A stretch of 64,000 nt of DNA from Rhodohalobacter sp. SW132 (lineage in GTDB: Bacteria; Bacteroidota; Rhodothermia; Balneolales; Balneolaceae): contig NZ_QUOK01000007.1 of the NCBI RefSeq assembly GCF_003390325.1, positions 62,001 through 126,000 of the forward strand, written 5' to 3'. Positions 19,608 to 25,307 of the stretch are shown piece by piece. Numbering within the stretch: the first letter of the stretch is position 1; the number at the start of each line of letters is the position of its first letter. The notes under the pieces are model-generated. The model had not been told where the DNA came from. It was given only the letters and a program-made list of their open reading frames with translations, and ran no database searches. The position numbers and the translations under genes were made by a program.

Positions 19608-19708
19608 GGCTTGTTAAGAAATTTGTTATTGAAAACTATTCGGTTGTGAAGATAGGAAATTGGGGCGGGAGTGGAACAAAAGAAATGATATTTCTACGCT
19701 CAATAAGA

Positions 19709-20311
19709 TCACGATCCGTTACTCTTCACCATATCCAAAAAATTCTGAAGCAGTAACGATCCCACAGACCCAGATTTTTCGGGGTGAAACTGAACGCCCA
19801 TAAAATTGTCTTTGGCAACTACGGCGGCAAAATCGTTGATGTATTTACAGGTTGCAAGAGCGTGGTCGTTTGATGGAGCGTAATAGCCGTGCACATAGTA
19901 AAGGAATTGTTGATTGCCAATCCCATTGATTAAAGGGTGCTCCTTTTGAGGTGCAAATTGATTCCACCCCATGTGAGGTACTTTTGCTTTTGAAGAGTCG
20001 AATTTTTTCAGGCGGCCGGGAATCAAACCGAGTGTTTCGCTGTCGCCCTCCTCAGAGGATTCATAGAGCAGCTGCATTCCCAGGCAGATTCCGAGTACCG
20101 GCTTATCTGTATTTTTTAGCCATACATCCAGATCACGGGAGCGGAGGTCGTCCATTGCGGCCCCGGCATGACCCACCCCGGGAAAGATAATTCCATCGGC
20201 CTTTGAGAGCTCATCCGGCTCGTCAGAAATAAAATGGTCGGCCCCCAGCCGTTTCAGTGCATTTGAAACTGATGTGAGATTGCCCGCCTGGTATTTGATG
20301 ATTCCGATCAT
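19709..20311 (-). CDS. hisH: Imidazole glycerol phosphate synthase, glutaminase subunit (HisH)
   Basis: 200 residues, class I glutamine amidotransferase. Nucleophile Cys in LGICLGMQLLYE, His and Glu in GVQFHPEKSGS, oxyanion region GVGHAG. It supplies ammonia to HisF, which turns PRFAR into imidazole glycerol phosphate and AICAR. HisF is not encoded in the window, so the partner must lie elsewhere. Separated from hisB by 145 bp that contain a GC-rich repeat. Confidence 0.95.
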   Translation of the reverse strand: MIGIIKYQAGNLTSVSNALKRLGADHFISDEPDELSKADGIIFPGVGHAGAAMDDLRSRDLDVWLKNTDKPVLGICLGMQLLYESSEEGDSETLGLIPGRLKKFDSSKAKVPHMGWNQFAPQKEHPLINGIGNQQFLYYVHGYYAPSNDHALATCKYINDFAAVVAKDNFMGVQFHPEKSGSVGSLLLQNFLDMVKSNGS

Positions 20312-20375
20312 TGACTGTCTTTAATTGGGGTGGAAAAGTGAAAAGTCAAAACGGACGAGAATCCTTTCGCCAGCT

Positions 20376-20428
20376 GGTGGAGTACTCCCCTCGAGCCACA
20401 CTTGGTGCAGATAGTTCGGCGGGGAGAA
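20376..20428. repeat. GC-rich palindromic repeat in the hisB-hisH spacer
   Basis: CTCCCCTCGAG...GGCGGGGAG inverted arms around a variable middle, related to the cccctc family found in the other his spacers. Confidence 0.65.
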
Positions 20429-20456
20429 TTTTCACTTTTGATTTTATACTTTTCAC

Positions 20457-21344
20457 TTAAATGGTTCCTTTAGTGGTTGGTAATATGCCGCGAATCCGTT
20501 CATTTCGGCTGATGGCAAATCGTAATGCCTTTGCAAAGCCTTTAAAGATCGATTCGATAATATGATGTTCGTTTTTACCGGTTGCCTCAACATGCAGGGT
20601 TGCTTTTACGTTCATGGCCAGTGTATAATAAAAGTGCTCTAACATTTCGGTTGGAAAATCGCCGACGTACTCTCTTTTGAGATCCACATCCCATCGCAGA
20701 AACGGGCGGTCGGAGAGGTCAATCGCCACGGTGGCCTGCGCTTCATCCATCGGCAGAACAAACCCGTAGCGCTGAATTCCCGCTTTGTTTTCAGAGATCG
20801 CTTCCCGAATGGCCTGGCCAAGTGCAATAGCAGTATCTTCGATGGTGTGATGTTCATCCACGTCCAGGTCGCCGTTGCAGGTAAGTTCCAGGTCGATTAA
20901 CCCGTGACGCGCAATCTGATCGAGCATGTGATCAAAAAAGTTCAAACCGGTGCTGATGTCGCTTTTACCCGTTCCGTCCAGGTTGATAGAGATCGAAATT
21001 TGCGTCTCTTTCGTATCCCGACTGATTTCCGCCTTCCGGCTGGGGAACAGGATGGATCGGGTGATCTCTGTCCAGGAATCGGCGGTTTCCACAGGCTTAC
21101 CATCCGACTCAAAAATATATTGATCCACATTTTTAATAGTGCCGTCCGCGTCAGCTTCTCCGAACCCTGAATTAGTGATCGATTCATTTTCAATCAGTTT
21201 TTGCTGATGATCTGAAAGTGATCCGGCATCAAAACCGAGCTGATATTCCGCCTCCATCAAATACTTCATGCCAAAAAGAGCACCTTCCGGCAGCAAGCTT
21301 TCACTTTCGGATTTCAATGCGGTAGGGTGGATATAGATTTTCAT
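20457..21344 (-). CDS. hisB: Imidazoleglycerol-phosphate dehydratase (HisB) with decayed HAD-like N-terminus
   Basis: 295 residues. From ~104 on it is a complete IGP dehydratase: SRDTKETQISISINLDG, FFDHMLDQIARHG, DEHHTIEDT (metal ligands) and NEHHIIESIFKGFAKALR. It dehydrates imidazole glycerol phosphate to imidazole acetol phosphate. The first ~103 residues resemble a shrunken bifunctional-HisB phosphatase domain: IHPTALKSE lies where IDRDGTLISE is expected, and LPEGALFGMKYLMEAEYQL where FEPGVIPELLKLQKAGYKL is. Both catalytic aspartates and the zinc loop are missing. Histidinol-phosphate phosphatase must then be supplied elsewhere. The family is certain, the origin of the extension an inference. 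Confidence 0.93.
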   Translation of the reverse strand: MKIYIHPTALKSESESLLPEGALFGMKYLMEAEYQLGFDAGSLSDHQQKLIENESITNSGFGEADADGTIKNVDQYIFESDGKPVETADSWTEITRSILFPSRKAEISRDTKETQISISINLDGTGKSDISTGLNFFDHMLDQIARHGLIDLELTCNGDLDVDEHHTIEDTAIALGQAIREAISENKAGIQRYGFVLPMDEAQATVAIDLSDRPFLRWDVDLKREYVGDFPTEMLEHFYYTLAMNVKATLHVEATGKNEHHIIESIFKGFAKALRFAISRNERIRGILPTTKGTI

Positions 21345-21369
21345 GGTTTCTTTGTTTGATTTGGTAGTA

Positions 21370-21455
21370 AGAGATCTCCCCTCCCCGGGTAACTACACCC
21401 CCGAGTCAAAGCTCGGGACAAGCCGGGGCCAGAAAAAACACTGGAAGGGGAGATT
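21370..21455. repeat. GC-rich palindromic repeat in the hisC-hisB spacer
   Basis: GATCTCCCCTCCCCGGG at one side and AAGGGGAGATTTTCAC at the other, with an inner CCCCGAGTC/GCTCGGG pair. It is followed by a short tandem of TTTTCAC-type heptamers up to 21495. Confidence 0.65.
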
Positions 21456-21496
21456 TTCACTTTTCACTTTTCACTTTTCATTTCTCACTTTTCCCC

Positions 21497-22552
21497 TCAC
21501 CCCACAACATCTTTCAGTGCCCTCAAAAACTTTACGTTCTCATCCGGCATACCGATGGTGACCCTCAGGCAATCTTCGCACAGCGGTTCATGACCGCGAT
21601 AGCGCACAATCACGCCAAGTTTAGCTAAATTTTGATACACTTCTTTCGCCTTTCGGATTTTAAAAAGCAGAAAATTGGCGTTTGAGGGATACACTTTTTC
21701 AACCGCATCCGCCAGATTCAGCTGCTCAGCCACGTACTGCCGCTCTTCGCGGATTTTTTTGATGTTGAATTTTAGCAGTTCCAGGTTATCAAATGCTTTC
21801 AGGGCAGTATCGGCTGTATGCTTATTGATGTTGTACGGGGCTTTTACCCGCATCATATAGCTGATGATCTCCGGATTGGCAATCGCCACGCCCAGACGAA
21901 TACCTGCCAAGCCAAAAGCCTTGGAAAAGGTCTGCAGCACCACCAGGTTGGGATACTGCTGCACCATTCCGGCCATCGACTCCTGCCTGCTGAAATCGAT
22001 ATACGCCTCATCCACCACCACAATTCCCGGAAAGGTCGTGCAAAGCTTCAGCAGATCGGTCCGCTTCATATCATTTGCGGTGGGATTGTTTGGCGAGCAG
22101 AGAAACAGGAGCTTCGTCGTTTCATCGACAGTCTCCTTGATCAAATCAGGCTGAAGCTGAAATTTCTCAGTCAGCATCACCTCTTTGATATTCACATTGT
22201 TGATGCTGGCCGACACCTTATACATCCCGTACGTGGGCGGCGTGGTTATGATAGAATCCCTTCCCGGCTCACAAAAAATCCGCATCAGCAGATCGATCGG
22301 CTCATCGCTGCCAACACCCAGGAAAAGATTTTCAACCTCCACACTTCGGTACTCCGCAATTACCTTCCGAAGCCGATCCTGCGTGGGGTCGGGATATCGA
22401 TGCAAATCCAGCGTATTTCGCACAGATGCACCGTAACTATTTTCGTTGGCATCCAGAAGCACGCCTTCATCAAAGTCATCCCGCGCACTTCGGTAGGGCG
22501 TCAGATTACGGATATTTTCGCGGACAAGGGTTTCGATGTTTGTTGTAGGCAT
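21497..22552 (-). CDS. hisC: Histidinol-phosphate aminotransferase (HisC)
   Basis: 351 residues, fold type I PLP enzyme. Visible are LLDANENSYGAS near the N-terminus, LCSPNNPTAND, VVDEAYIDFS (Asp for the PLP ring nitrogen), the PLP lysine in QTFSKAFGLAGIRLG, and the phosphate-binding Arg in FLRALK/RYRGHEPL region. It makes histidinol phosphate from imidazole acetol phosphate and glutamate. Third gene of the cluster; 193 bp separate it from hisD. Confidence 0.95.
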   Translation of the reverse strand: MPTTNIETLVRENIRNLTPYRSARDDFDEGVLLDANENSYGASVRNTLDLHRYPDPTQDRLRKVIAEYRSVEVENLFLGVGSDEPIDLLMRIFCEPGRDSIITTPPTYGMYKVSASINNVNIKEVMLTEKFQLQPDLIKETVDETTKLLFLCSPNNPTANDMKRTDLLKLCTTFPGIVVVDEAYIDFSRQESMAGMVQQYPNLVVLQTFSKAFGLAGIRLGVAIANPEIISYMMRVKAPYNINKHTADTALKAFDNLELLKFNIKKIREERQYVAEQLNLADAVEKVYPSNANFLLFKIRKAKEVYQNLAKLGVIVRYRGHEPLCEDCLRVTIGMPDENVKFLRALKDVVG

Positions 22553-22578
22553 TGAACAAATTTTATGTTTGGATTCAA

Positions 22579-22742
22579 ATGTCCCCCTTAGAAGGGGGCA
22601 GAAACCGACGCAGGAGGTTTCGGGGGATGATTACGGAACGTTGATCTTGTTTATGGGTAATTTGTGAATCTGTACCCCGCGAACCCACCCCTGATCAATC
22701 GCTGAACGCTCTTGATCTGTCCCCTCCCGAGAGGGGAAAACC
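22579..22742. repeat. Palindromic repeats in the hisD-hisC spacer
   Basis: Two units: GTCCCCCTTAGAAGGGGGC at 22579-22598, and CACCCCTGATCAATCGCTG through CTGTCCCCTCCCGAGAGGGG at 22686-22737. The inner hairpin GATCAA...TTGATC of the second matches the unit in the hisG-hisD spacer almost exactly. Confidence 0.75.
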
Positions 22743-22745
22743 TTT

Positions 22746-24041
22746 TCACCTTTCACTTTTCACTTTTGCCAGCCTCAAACTCACCGCATTTTTATGAGCG
22801 TCCAGCCCTTCAAGACCCGCAAGAGTCTCCACGGTGGGACCGAGATTTTTCAATCCTTCTTTGGTGATTGTCTGCATGGTAATAAATTTCTGGAAACTGT
22901 GGAGCGATACGCCGCTGTACATCCGGGCGTAGCCGTATGTGGGCAGCGTGTGATTGGTGCCGGAGGCGTAATCGCCCATGCTTTCGGGGGTCCACTGACC
23001 GATAAAAACCGACCCGGCATTGGATACGTCTTCTGCCAGCTCTTCTGCATCATTCGTATTGATAATCAGGTGCTCCGGCGCGTATTGGTTTGAGAACTCC
23101 ATCGCCTGCTCTGTGGATTCCACCACAATCGTAAAGCTTTTTTCAAGCGCATCGGCAGCAAACTCTTTTCGGGGGAGGTCATTCAGCTGCTTTTGTACCT
23201 GTGAATTAATTTCATCAAGGTTGGCCTGAACGGTAACAACTAAAACAACCTGGCTATCGGACCCGTGTTCGGCTTGCGAAAGCAGATCGGCGGCGATGAA
23301 CTCGGGATCAGCAGTTTCATCGGCAATAACAAGCACTTCCGACGGACCCGCGGGCATATCAATGGAGACCATCGCCTCGCTGTTTTGCAAGATCATTTTG
23401 GCGGCGGTAACGTACTGGTTACCCGGACCAAAAATCTTATCCACCTTGGGTATCGATTCGGTGCCATAGGCCATCCCGGCAACTGCCTGCGCACCGCCTG
23501 CTTTCACTACGGCCGCTGCCCCGATTTTTTTCGCCACGTACAGAATCGACTCCGGAATGTTTCCATCTTTATCCGGAGGCGTAGCCACTACGATCGTCTT
23601 GCAGCCTGCAACGTAAGCGGGAATGCCGAGCATCATAGCGGTGGAGGGGAGGGGCGCGGTTCCGCCAGGAATGTAGAGACCAACGCGCTCAATCGGCCTG
23701 GCCACACGGCTGCATACAACGCCATCGGTCGTCTCCACATCAAGATTCATCGAAAACTGTTCCCGGTGAAACCGGTAGATATTCTGCATGGCCCGGTCGA
23801 GAGCTTCCTCTATTTTGGGATCCAGGTTCACCTCCATTTCTGAGGGATCCACCGTCATGGGCTCTGGCCGCACGCCGTCAAATTTCTCGGTAAACGTTAA
23901 AATCGCTTCATCCCCGCCCGACTCCACCGCATCAAGGATTGGCTGCACCGTACCAAAAACAGACGCAAAATCCATTTTTGGACGTTTGGTCAGTTCCGTG
24001 ATTTGGGAAGGGGTGAGGGAGTTGTATTTATAGGTTTTCAT
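22746..24041 (-). CDS. hisD: Histidinol dehydrogenase (HisD)
   Basis: 431 residues, usual length. Motifs: [56 protein letters not shown] (zinc-ligand Gln/His and base region) and [10 protein letters not shown], with a late [10 protein letters not shown]. It oxidises histidinol to histidine in two NAD-dependent steps, the last reactions of the pathway. It follows hisG after 202 bp carrying a repeat. Confidence 0.95.
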
Positions 24042-24065
24042 TATTTAATCGTATTGAGGTTTCGC

Positions 24066-24222
24066 AAGTCCCCTCTTGAGAGGGGGAAGGTGTAGCGGAA
24101 ACGGCAAAGCCGGATGACGCAAACGAGGGGTGTGCTACATGGCTGGATTTCTGCTCATATTCAACACACCCCTGATCAATCGCTGGACGCTCTTGATCTG
24201 TCCCCTCTTGAGAGGGGATTAA
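24066..24222. repeat. Palindromic repeats in the hisG-hisD spacer
   Basis: A unit CCCCTCTTGAGAGGGGG followed by GGTGTAGCGGAAACGGCAAA and CGAGGGGTG, and a second CACACCCCTGATCAATCGCT through GTCCCCTCTTGAGAGGGG. The middle part, GAAGCCGGATGACGCAAACG-like, is shared with the unit at 18381-18435. Confidence 0.8.
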
Positions 24223-24243
24223 TCATCTATAATCTCACATCTC

Positions 24244-25122
24244 CTAAACAATCATACTTTCAATCGGCAGCATCACAATTCCGGTGGCGCCGGCGGCTTT
24301 GAGTTCTTCCATCAGGTCCCAGAATGCGGTGATGGTAATGACCGTGTGAATGGCCACCATTCCGTTGTCGGCCAGGGGCATCACGGTTGGGCTCCTCAGT
24401 GATGGAATGATCTTCTTAATTTTCTCCACAGATTCCTGCGGGGCGTTCATCATGATATAGCGGCTTTTCTCGGCCCGCTGGTATCCTTCAATCCGCTGCA
24501 GAAATTTGTCGATCAGTGCCTGTTTGCCATCGGAAAGCGGCTTATTGGTTTTTACAAGCTGCGTTTCGGAATCAAAAATCTTATCAATCTCTACGAGACC
24601 GTTCGCTTTCAGTGTGCCGCCGGTCGAGACCAGGTCGGTGATTGCATCGGCTATCTCCAGGCGCGGGGCGATCTCCACGGAACCGGATAGCGTTACGATC
24701 TTTACATTAATCCCTTTCTCTTCAAAAAAGTTGCGGGTGAGTACGGGATAGCTGGTGGCAATTTTTTTGCCTTCAAAATCTTCTGCTTTTTTGATATCCC
24801 CATTTTTGGGTACGGCAACCGACAGCCGGCAGACACCGTATTCGAGGCCTTTCAGGATGGTGACATCCGCCTGGTCTTCAGCCACGACATTCGCGCCCAC
24901 AAAACCGAGATCGCAAACACCGTCCTGCACATATTCCGGAATATCATCATCCCGGATTAAAAGAAGTTCTACATCAAAATTCAGACACCTGACGAGCAGG
25001 CTTCGCTTGTAGTCGTCAAATTTCAGACCGATGCCTTCAAGCAGTTTTAACGTTTTATCCGTAAGTCGGCCGCTTTTCTGAACGGCTATACGCAGTGACG
25101 TGGTAGAATCAAGGGTTCTCAT
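24244..25122 (-). CDS. hisG: ATP phosphoribosyltransferase, long form (HisG)
   Basis: 292 residues, so the long form with a C-terminal ACT-like regulatory domain (~220-292) expected to bind histidine; no HisZ is needed. Core motifs: LRIAVQKSGRLTDKTL, YVQDGVCDLGFVGANVV, and DLVSTGGTLKANGL (PRPP loop). It condenses ATP and PRPP, the committed step. First structural gene of the cluster, 71 bp after the His-rich leader ORF's stop. Confidence 0.95.
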   Translation of the reverse strand: MRTLDSTTSLRIAVQKSGRLTDKTLKLLEGIGLKFDDYKRSLLVRCLNFDVELLLIRDDDIPEYVQDGVCDLGFVGANVVAEDQADVTILKGLEYGVCRLSVAVPKNGDIKKAEDFEGKKIATSYPVLTRNFFEEKGINVKIVTLSGSVEIAPRLEIADAITDLVSTGGTLKANGLVEIDKIFDSETQLVKTNKPLSDGKQALIDKFLQRIEGYQRAEKSRYIMMNAPQESVEKIKKIIPSLRSPTVMPLADNGMVAIHTVITITAFWDLMEELKAAGATGIVMLPIESMIV

Positions 25123-25149
25123 AAGAAAATAAAATCAGGTTGTTTGTAG

Positions 25150-25224
25150 AAAAAGAGTGTGATAACCGGGCAGAAGGGACGAAAGGAGATGATTCAGTGT
25201 ACAAGATGCCCATGGCTGCCGGTT
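25150..25224 (-). promoter_or_regulatory. Candidate attenuator stem between his leader and hisG
   Basis: On the minus strand AACCGGCAG (25224-25216, inside the leader ORF) can pair with CTGCCCGGTT (25173-25164) with one bulged C, followed after ACACTC-type spacer by a T6 tract (25155-25150). Because the first arm lies after the His-His-His codons, ribosome position could decide whether it forms. I see no second, clearly exclusive antiterminator stem. Moderate to low confidence. Confidence 0.4.
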
Positions 25225-25271
25225 TGCAGACGATGATGATGGAGAGAAATATGGAAGTCAGTTTTAATCAC
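25194..25271 (-). CDS. Histidine-rich leader peptide of the his operon
   Basis: A 26-codon frame (GTG start, TGA stop) encoding 25 residues. Seven are histidine: positions 7, 11, 12, 13, 20, 22 and 25, including a run of three CAT codons. It lies 71 bp before hisG on the same strand. This is the hallmark of transcription attenuation, where starved ribosomes stall on His codons and change folding of the downstream RNA. No ATG or Shine-Dalgarno is seen. A Bacteroidota-type -7 box ends only 4 bases before the GTG, which would make the message leaderless. The ORF is too short for usual gene callers. Function is inferred. Confidence 0.7.
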   Translation of the reverse strand: MIKTDFHISLHHHRLQTGSHGHLVH

Positions 25272-25275
25272 GCGC

Positions 25276-25307
25276 CAAAGTTAGGGATTTACAGAGTGTA
25301 AAGCCAA
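25276..25307 (-). promoter_or_regulatory. Bacteroidota-type promoter of the his operon
   Basis: On the minus strand TTG (25307-25305), 21 bases, then TAACTTTG (25283-25276). This fits the TTG / TAnnTTTG consensus described for Bacteroides primary-sigma promoters, with normal spacing. Transcription would start at or within a few bases of the leader GTG. Confidence 0.55.

Follow-up and report, generated by a model that had tools for sequence, protein, structure and literature searches.

Among described systems, the closest counterpart of the element analyzed here is the enterobacterial His leader (Rfam family His_leader; Escherichia coli and Salmonella), in which a short open reading frame (ORF) with a run of His codons precedes hisG and is overlapped by a hairpin. 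Both features are shared by the region ahead of hisG in a 64,000-nucleotide stretch of Rhodohalobacter sp. SW132 (hereafter the window; NZ_QUOK01000007.1, positions 62,001 to 126,000), whose 5.08-Mb genome belongs to the family Balneolaceae. However, whereas the enterobacterial leader starts after a 5' UTR, the start codon in the window lies at the predicted transcript start, and the window leader has neither an intrinsic terminator nor a match to the Rfam family. His leaders of other Bacteroidota, Chlorobiota and Ignavibacteria (e.g., L158, L161, L166 and L227-L264) resemble it in having a short ORF with a His run about equally far from hisG, but most of them differ in carrying a strong GC stem and a U tract within about 100 nt of hisG. 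A His leader peptide is a known kind of element; what is missing here is the intrinsic terminator that defines the classical his attenuator. Older comparative work on attenuators, by Vitreschak in 2004 and Lopatovskaya in 2010 (the latter cited in PMC4833913), reportedly extended to Bacteroidetes/Chlorobi. Outside this specialist comparative literature, we are not aware that a His leader both leaderless and terminator-less has been reported for Balneolaceae. Flavobacterium psychrophilum is a member of the phylum for which leader-peptide attenuation has been mentioned (PMC9723704), and a his-gene survey from 2021 with Balneolota among its taxa does not use the word leader and mentions attenuation once, with regard to enterobacteria (PMC8305728).

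Systems devoted to other amino acids provide further comparisons. Mycobacterial cysteine uORFs (PMC4633059) and cys leaders (PMC1262725) are likewise small ORFs containing the cognate codon ahead of biosynthetic genes with no conserved terminator, and are leaderless, as predicted for the hisG leader; Rho has been suggested to act at the terminator-less cys operon leaders (PMC1262725); they differ in phylum and amino acid, and a covarying hairpin within the ORF is a feature of Balneolaceae. In the trpL/rnTrpL system of Sinorhizobium meliloti (PMC7298713), the 5' end of the attenuator RNA coincides with the leader start codon, as is predicted for the hisG leader, although that system concerns tryptophan, belongs to a different phylum and releases the attenuated small RNA. 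The E. coli tna operon is similar in that Rho, proposed here for hisG, acts between the leader ORF and the first structural gene. TnaC, however, arrests on free tryptophan via its peptide sequence, whereas the signal for the hisG leader would be scarce His-tRNA, because it is mainly the His codons that are conserved in this leader.

In the window, the leader ORF (minus strand, 25271..25194; VIKTDFHISLHHHRLQTGSHGHLVH followed by a stop codon) starts with GTG, is tiny and unannotated, and encodes 25 residues, seven of which are His, with an HHH run at codons 11-13. Its stop codon is separated by 71 nt from the ATG of hisG at 25122 on the same strand. These features agree with an earlier reading of the sequence alone, which had pointed to a 26-codon frame (25 residues plus the stop) with seven His codons, three of them consecutive, ending 71 bp before hisG. 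When the 300-nt region 5' of hisG was shuffled with dinucleotide composition preserved, a short ORF with at least seven His appeared in 1 of 2000 shuffles, so the His content of the leader is not a matter of chance. Besides the leader, the window holds a single ORF of 10-45 aa with at least six His, which lies antisense within a gene. The hisG gene (24244..25122, minus strand; 292 aa, long form) is the first of a his gene series, being followed on the same strand by hisD, hisC, hisB and hisH down to 19709 (gene names from reading the translations). The his genes at 19608-24243 (minus strand) lie about 100-200 nt apart; such long gaps are unusual for a tight operon, and several are C-rich. In HisB (20457-21344, minus strand; 295 aa), roughly 100 additional N-terminal residues precede the dehydratase-like part, and a domain of unclear function has been described in the HisB of Balneolota (PMC8305728).

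Regions 5' of hisG were collected across Balneolaceae, including relatives from Rhodohalobacter, Fodinibius/Aliifodinibius, Gracilimonas and Balneola, and 78 loci were counted in which the upstream region was intact and HisG was orthologous (about 67% identity or more). All 78 carry a counterpart of the leader, a His-rich short ORF with 4-12 His that ends 54-127 nt ahead of hisG; His makes up 33% of the residues of these leaders and is encoded by both codons (469 CAT and 170 CAC). Wherever it could be tested, His codons were thus retained in the relatives' frame ahead of hisG; the sequence-only reading had named their loss as a possible refutation. The conserved properties are the His content, the position of the start and the location before hisG, and the remaining peptide sequence diverges, which is the signature expected of a codon-sensing leader. 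His-rich peptides can bind metals, and the ORF could in principle be such a functional small protein with no connection to his regulation, or be untranslated altogether; this is highly improbable given the divergence of everything except His content, start position and location, and given the resemblance to known His attenuators of the equivalent arrangements, complete with terminators, found in other classes. Considering that the ORF is family-wide, that its peptide is otherwise divergent and that its internal hairpin covaries (see below), that it encodes some form of His leader peptide is well supported and can be stated with great confidence, and judged from these comparisons the leader almost certainly serves as a sensor of histidine supply through His-tRNA. 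Exceptions to the orthologous set within the family are divergent HisG proteins with 44-46% identity. In one of these (genome G040; HisG 44% identity), hisG is preceded by a different, classic His leader, after which come a strong stem and a long T tract (L084), an arrangement consistent with joint acquisition of hisG and its attenuator.

The sigma-A promoters of Bacteroidota contain a -7 box, TAnnTTTG, with T at -12, A at -11, T at -8, -7 and -6, and G at -5 (PMC6847099), a span also given as -12 to -5 (PMC9723704). A matching box, TAACTTTG (25276..25283, minus strand), has its first T 12 nt before the leader GTG, which places the predicted transcription start at 25271, the G of this codon; a -33-like element, TTGG, is found at 25304..25307 (minus strand), 36 to 33 nt before the start codon. 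Across the family, the first T of TAnnTT precedes the leader start codon by 12 or 13 nt at 62 of the 78 loci, so that the start codon is predicted to fall at +1 or +2. The TTGG-like element is weaker, with column frequencies over the 78 loci of 0.56 for T at -36, 0.62 for T at -35, 0.44 for G at -34 and 0.38 for G at -33. A -7 box 4-5 nt ahead of an ATG was seen at none of the 52 window ORFs of at least 120 aa, and in the His leaders of other Bacteroidota the -7 box, where found, is mostly more distant from the start codon. Transcription starting downstream of the ORF, which the sequence-only reading had also listed as a possible objection, finds no backing here, as the predicted promoter lies upstream of the ORF and abuts it. 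Judging from this promoter spacing, the transcript is likely to be leaderless, with translation of the leader peptide beginning at its very 5' end. Only a minority of mRNAs in the phylum are of this type, with 3.7% having a 5' UTR under 10 nt in one mapped species (PMC7366714) and 5.5% being leaderless in a second (PMC9723704). The same leaderless design was sought at ilvB and not found. In two Balneolaceae Trp leaders, a TAnnTTT box stands a few nucleotides before an ATG, and some other Balneolales that have no His leader show a TATCTT-type box closer to hisG instead (L140, L144, L147 and L149-L151).

The sequence-only reading proposed classical attenuation of the E. coli type, in which alternative stems exclude one another and an intrinsic terminator is used. 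A His leader, a pair of inverted arms and a nearby T tract are indeed all present, and other groups of Bacteroidota and Chlorobiota do combine a His leader with a strong terminator. However, two scans of the window detected no intrinsic terminator between the leader and hisG. The tract reported as T6 after the arms is a T5 (25154..25150) located 9 nt past the second arm and, because of this distance, does not form an intrinsic terminator, and the arms would close a loop of about 42 nt. No match of the window leader to His_leader was obtained at the gathering score or even at E 10, nor did any other Rfam family match the leader region. In the family, 23 of the 78 loci gave weak terminator candidates (about -2 to -10 kcal/mol), many within the ORF and none of them conserved, while the same scan mostly recovered a stem of about -10 to -24 kcal/mol with a U tract at the His leaders of other Bacteroidota, Chlorobiota and Ignavibacteria, and terminators of -17 to -19 kcal/mol at Balneolaceae Trp leaders. 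The Trp leaders indicate that Balneolaceae can build strong terminators but do not use them at hisG. Classical attenuation with a terminator was rejected on the two scans together with this positive-control comparison; with the arms also unconserved in congeners, the classical scheme is improbable. What stands of the proposed control through histidinyl-tRNA is the sensor, supported by its conservation throughout the family, and what falls is the intrinsic terminator, which is absent from the window and not a conserved feature of the family.

Several further leaders were encountered during these scans. By the same scan, no terminator was found in some other Bacteroidota families (f18, G260 and G155), and His leaders with no detectable intrinsic terminator occur outside Balneolales at L246-L249 and L260 (families f18, f34 and f35), so terminator loss may extend beyond Balneolaceae and may have occurred more than once. 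In two other Balneolales loci (L138 and L142), a strong hairpin takes in both the final His codons and the stop codon of the leader, and a T-rich stretch comes after it; this layout is unlike that of Balneolaceae. In some members of the family (L167, L173, L175, L176 and L184), trpE is preceded by a Trp leader that has a WWW run and a strong intrinsic terminator, and no Trp leader was found at the trpE of the window genome (L189).

The RNA structure that is conserved lies inside the ORF. P1, a CTGC-AAACCG-GCAG hairpin (25216..25229, minus strand), immediately follows the HHH run and an Arg codon, and its arms covary: at fixed coordinates in 34 nonredundant sequences, cognate arms out-paired exchanged arms with z -5.8 (0 of 20000 permutations), compared with z -1.0 for a shifted control. 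In other sub-clades, hairpins occur at the equivalent place, with some compensatory changes. These anchored tests of cognate versus noncognate arm pairing correct for relatedness in part only. The fold of the window leader by itself is uninformative (z -0.35), and RNAalifold gave no useful structure for the large, divergent group A alignment.

A second pairing, B:C, competes with P1 (span 25164..25224, minus strand). It joins AACCGGCAG (25224-25216) to CTGCCCGGTT (25173-25164) with one bulge; these are the inverted arms of the sequence-only reading, and both arms do exist, the first of them inside the frame. In the window, B:C reaches -19.8 kcal/mol (p = 0.007 versus shuffled gaps), but it is absent from three congeners and marginal for the subfamily (p = 0.07), and it was therefore rejected as a conserved antiterminator. 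As part of a conserved attenuator, the arms thus fail within the genus, and P1 takes their place as the conserved hairpin. In masked folds of the window RNA, B:C remains intact with a ribosome at His7, His11 or His12 and is disrupted with one at His13 or His20, yet much of it still forms with the ribosome at the stop codon, so that any switching logic built on it is only a sketch.

A third hairpin, P2 (GUGC...GCAC), encloses the leader stop codon and covaries in two sub-clades, with p = 0.0004 for cognate versus noncognate arms in a Rhodohalobacter-like group and p = 0.0002 in a Gracilimonas/Balneola-like group (group B), the results for the latter calling for caution because a control pairing between the 5' part of the ORF and the gap was also significant. 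Owing to this covariation, the output might be a weak, noncanonical intrinsic terminator made of P2 and a nearby U tract, perhaps aided by NusA/NusG, operating with the same sensor in place of Rho. In the Gracilimonas/Balneola-like group, P2 has a T5 tract behind it in 50% of cases versus 22% in shuffles, which fits this idea. Against it, P2 is absent from the window, where the value is -0.7 kcal/mol, and other loci have only weak versions of about -5 to -11 kcal/mol; the U tract is inconsistent, with none after P2 in a Fodinibius-like group; and under ample histidine, ribosomes reaching the stop codon would melt P2, which is the wrong sign for a simple terminator. A weak terminator of this kind is accordingly considered rather unlikely.

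The untranslated 71-nt gap between leader and hisG (25123..25193, minus strand) is a candidate Rho-loading, rut-like stretch. It contains 31% C and 7% G and is predicted to be mostly unpaired; its C minus G value is 0.24, compared with 0.04 +/- 0.085 for 38 control upstream regions, and the C/G ratio of the gap is about 5 in the two largest groups of the family. A few further genes in the window likewise have C-rich, G-poor gaps. Two Rho homologs were found in the genome, one a frame of about 506 aa and the other a 404-aa protein below the family cutoff (L273 and L274, on contigs C4 and C1). A C-rich, G-poor, open gap and a rho gene are thus both present, features that are necessary but not sufficient for a Rho-dependent leader. 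To our knowledge, Rho sites are not recognizable by sequence, and few Rho-acting leaders are known on biosynthetic operons. Because the gap is C-rich, G-poor and open and a terminator is absent, Rho-dependent attenuation is favored, with moderate confidence, as the putative output step.

Alternatively, the same sensor might act on translation or mRNA stability, with stalled ribosomes altering access to the hisG start or protecting the mRNA. Such control would suit a phylum that lacks Shine-Dalgarno sites and tunes initiation by mRNA structure (PMC6847099), and mycobacteria offer parallels in leaderless cysteine leader ORFs (PMC4633059) and in cys leaders that lack terminators (PMC1262725). It is nevertheless unlikely, since the hisG start region is predicted to be mostly open (mean unpaired probability 0.65 over the 78 loci and 0.69 in the window), and no conserved pairing was seen that reaches this region or sequesters it.

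The preferred Rho-dependent scheme would work as follows. Transcription from the sigma-A promoter would start at the leader start codon or one base before it, and a ribosome would initiate on the leaderless 5' end. With ample His-tRNA, the ribosome would reach the stop codon, P1 would refold behind it and the 71-nt gap would be left bare, on which Rho could load and halt most transcription before or early in hisG. When His-tRNA is scarce, a ribosome stalled at His codons 7-12 would cover the 5' arm of P1; the freed 3' arm could then pair with the gap through B:C and mask the Rho site, allowing RNA polymerase to enter the operon. As B:C is not conserved, this antitermination arm of the model would hold at the species level at best. 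For the whole chain, in which a leaderless His leader couples the his operon to the supply of histidyl-tRNA with output via Rho, we estimate a probability of roughly 0.5.

At the level of the family, it is suggested more tentatively that a leaderless His leader with Rho-dependent attenuation has replaced the usual intrinsic terminator of the phylum in Balneolaceae, which would represent a lineage-wide switch of the output device with the sensor kept. Since other classes retain the combination of a His leader and an intrinsic terminator, these lineages provide a natural comparison in which the output device of an attenuator may have been exchanged around the same sensor. The finding would thereby add a family-wide, unannotated sensor with its promoter and start codon fused; translation in this phylum does without Shine-Dalgarno sites, and leaderless mRNAs form a minority of about 4-6% in two mapped species (PMC7366714, PMC9723704).
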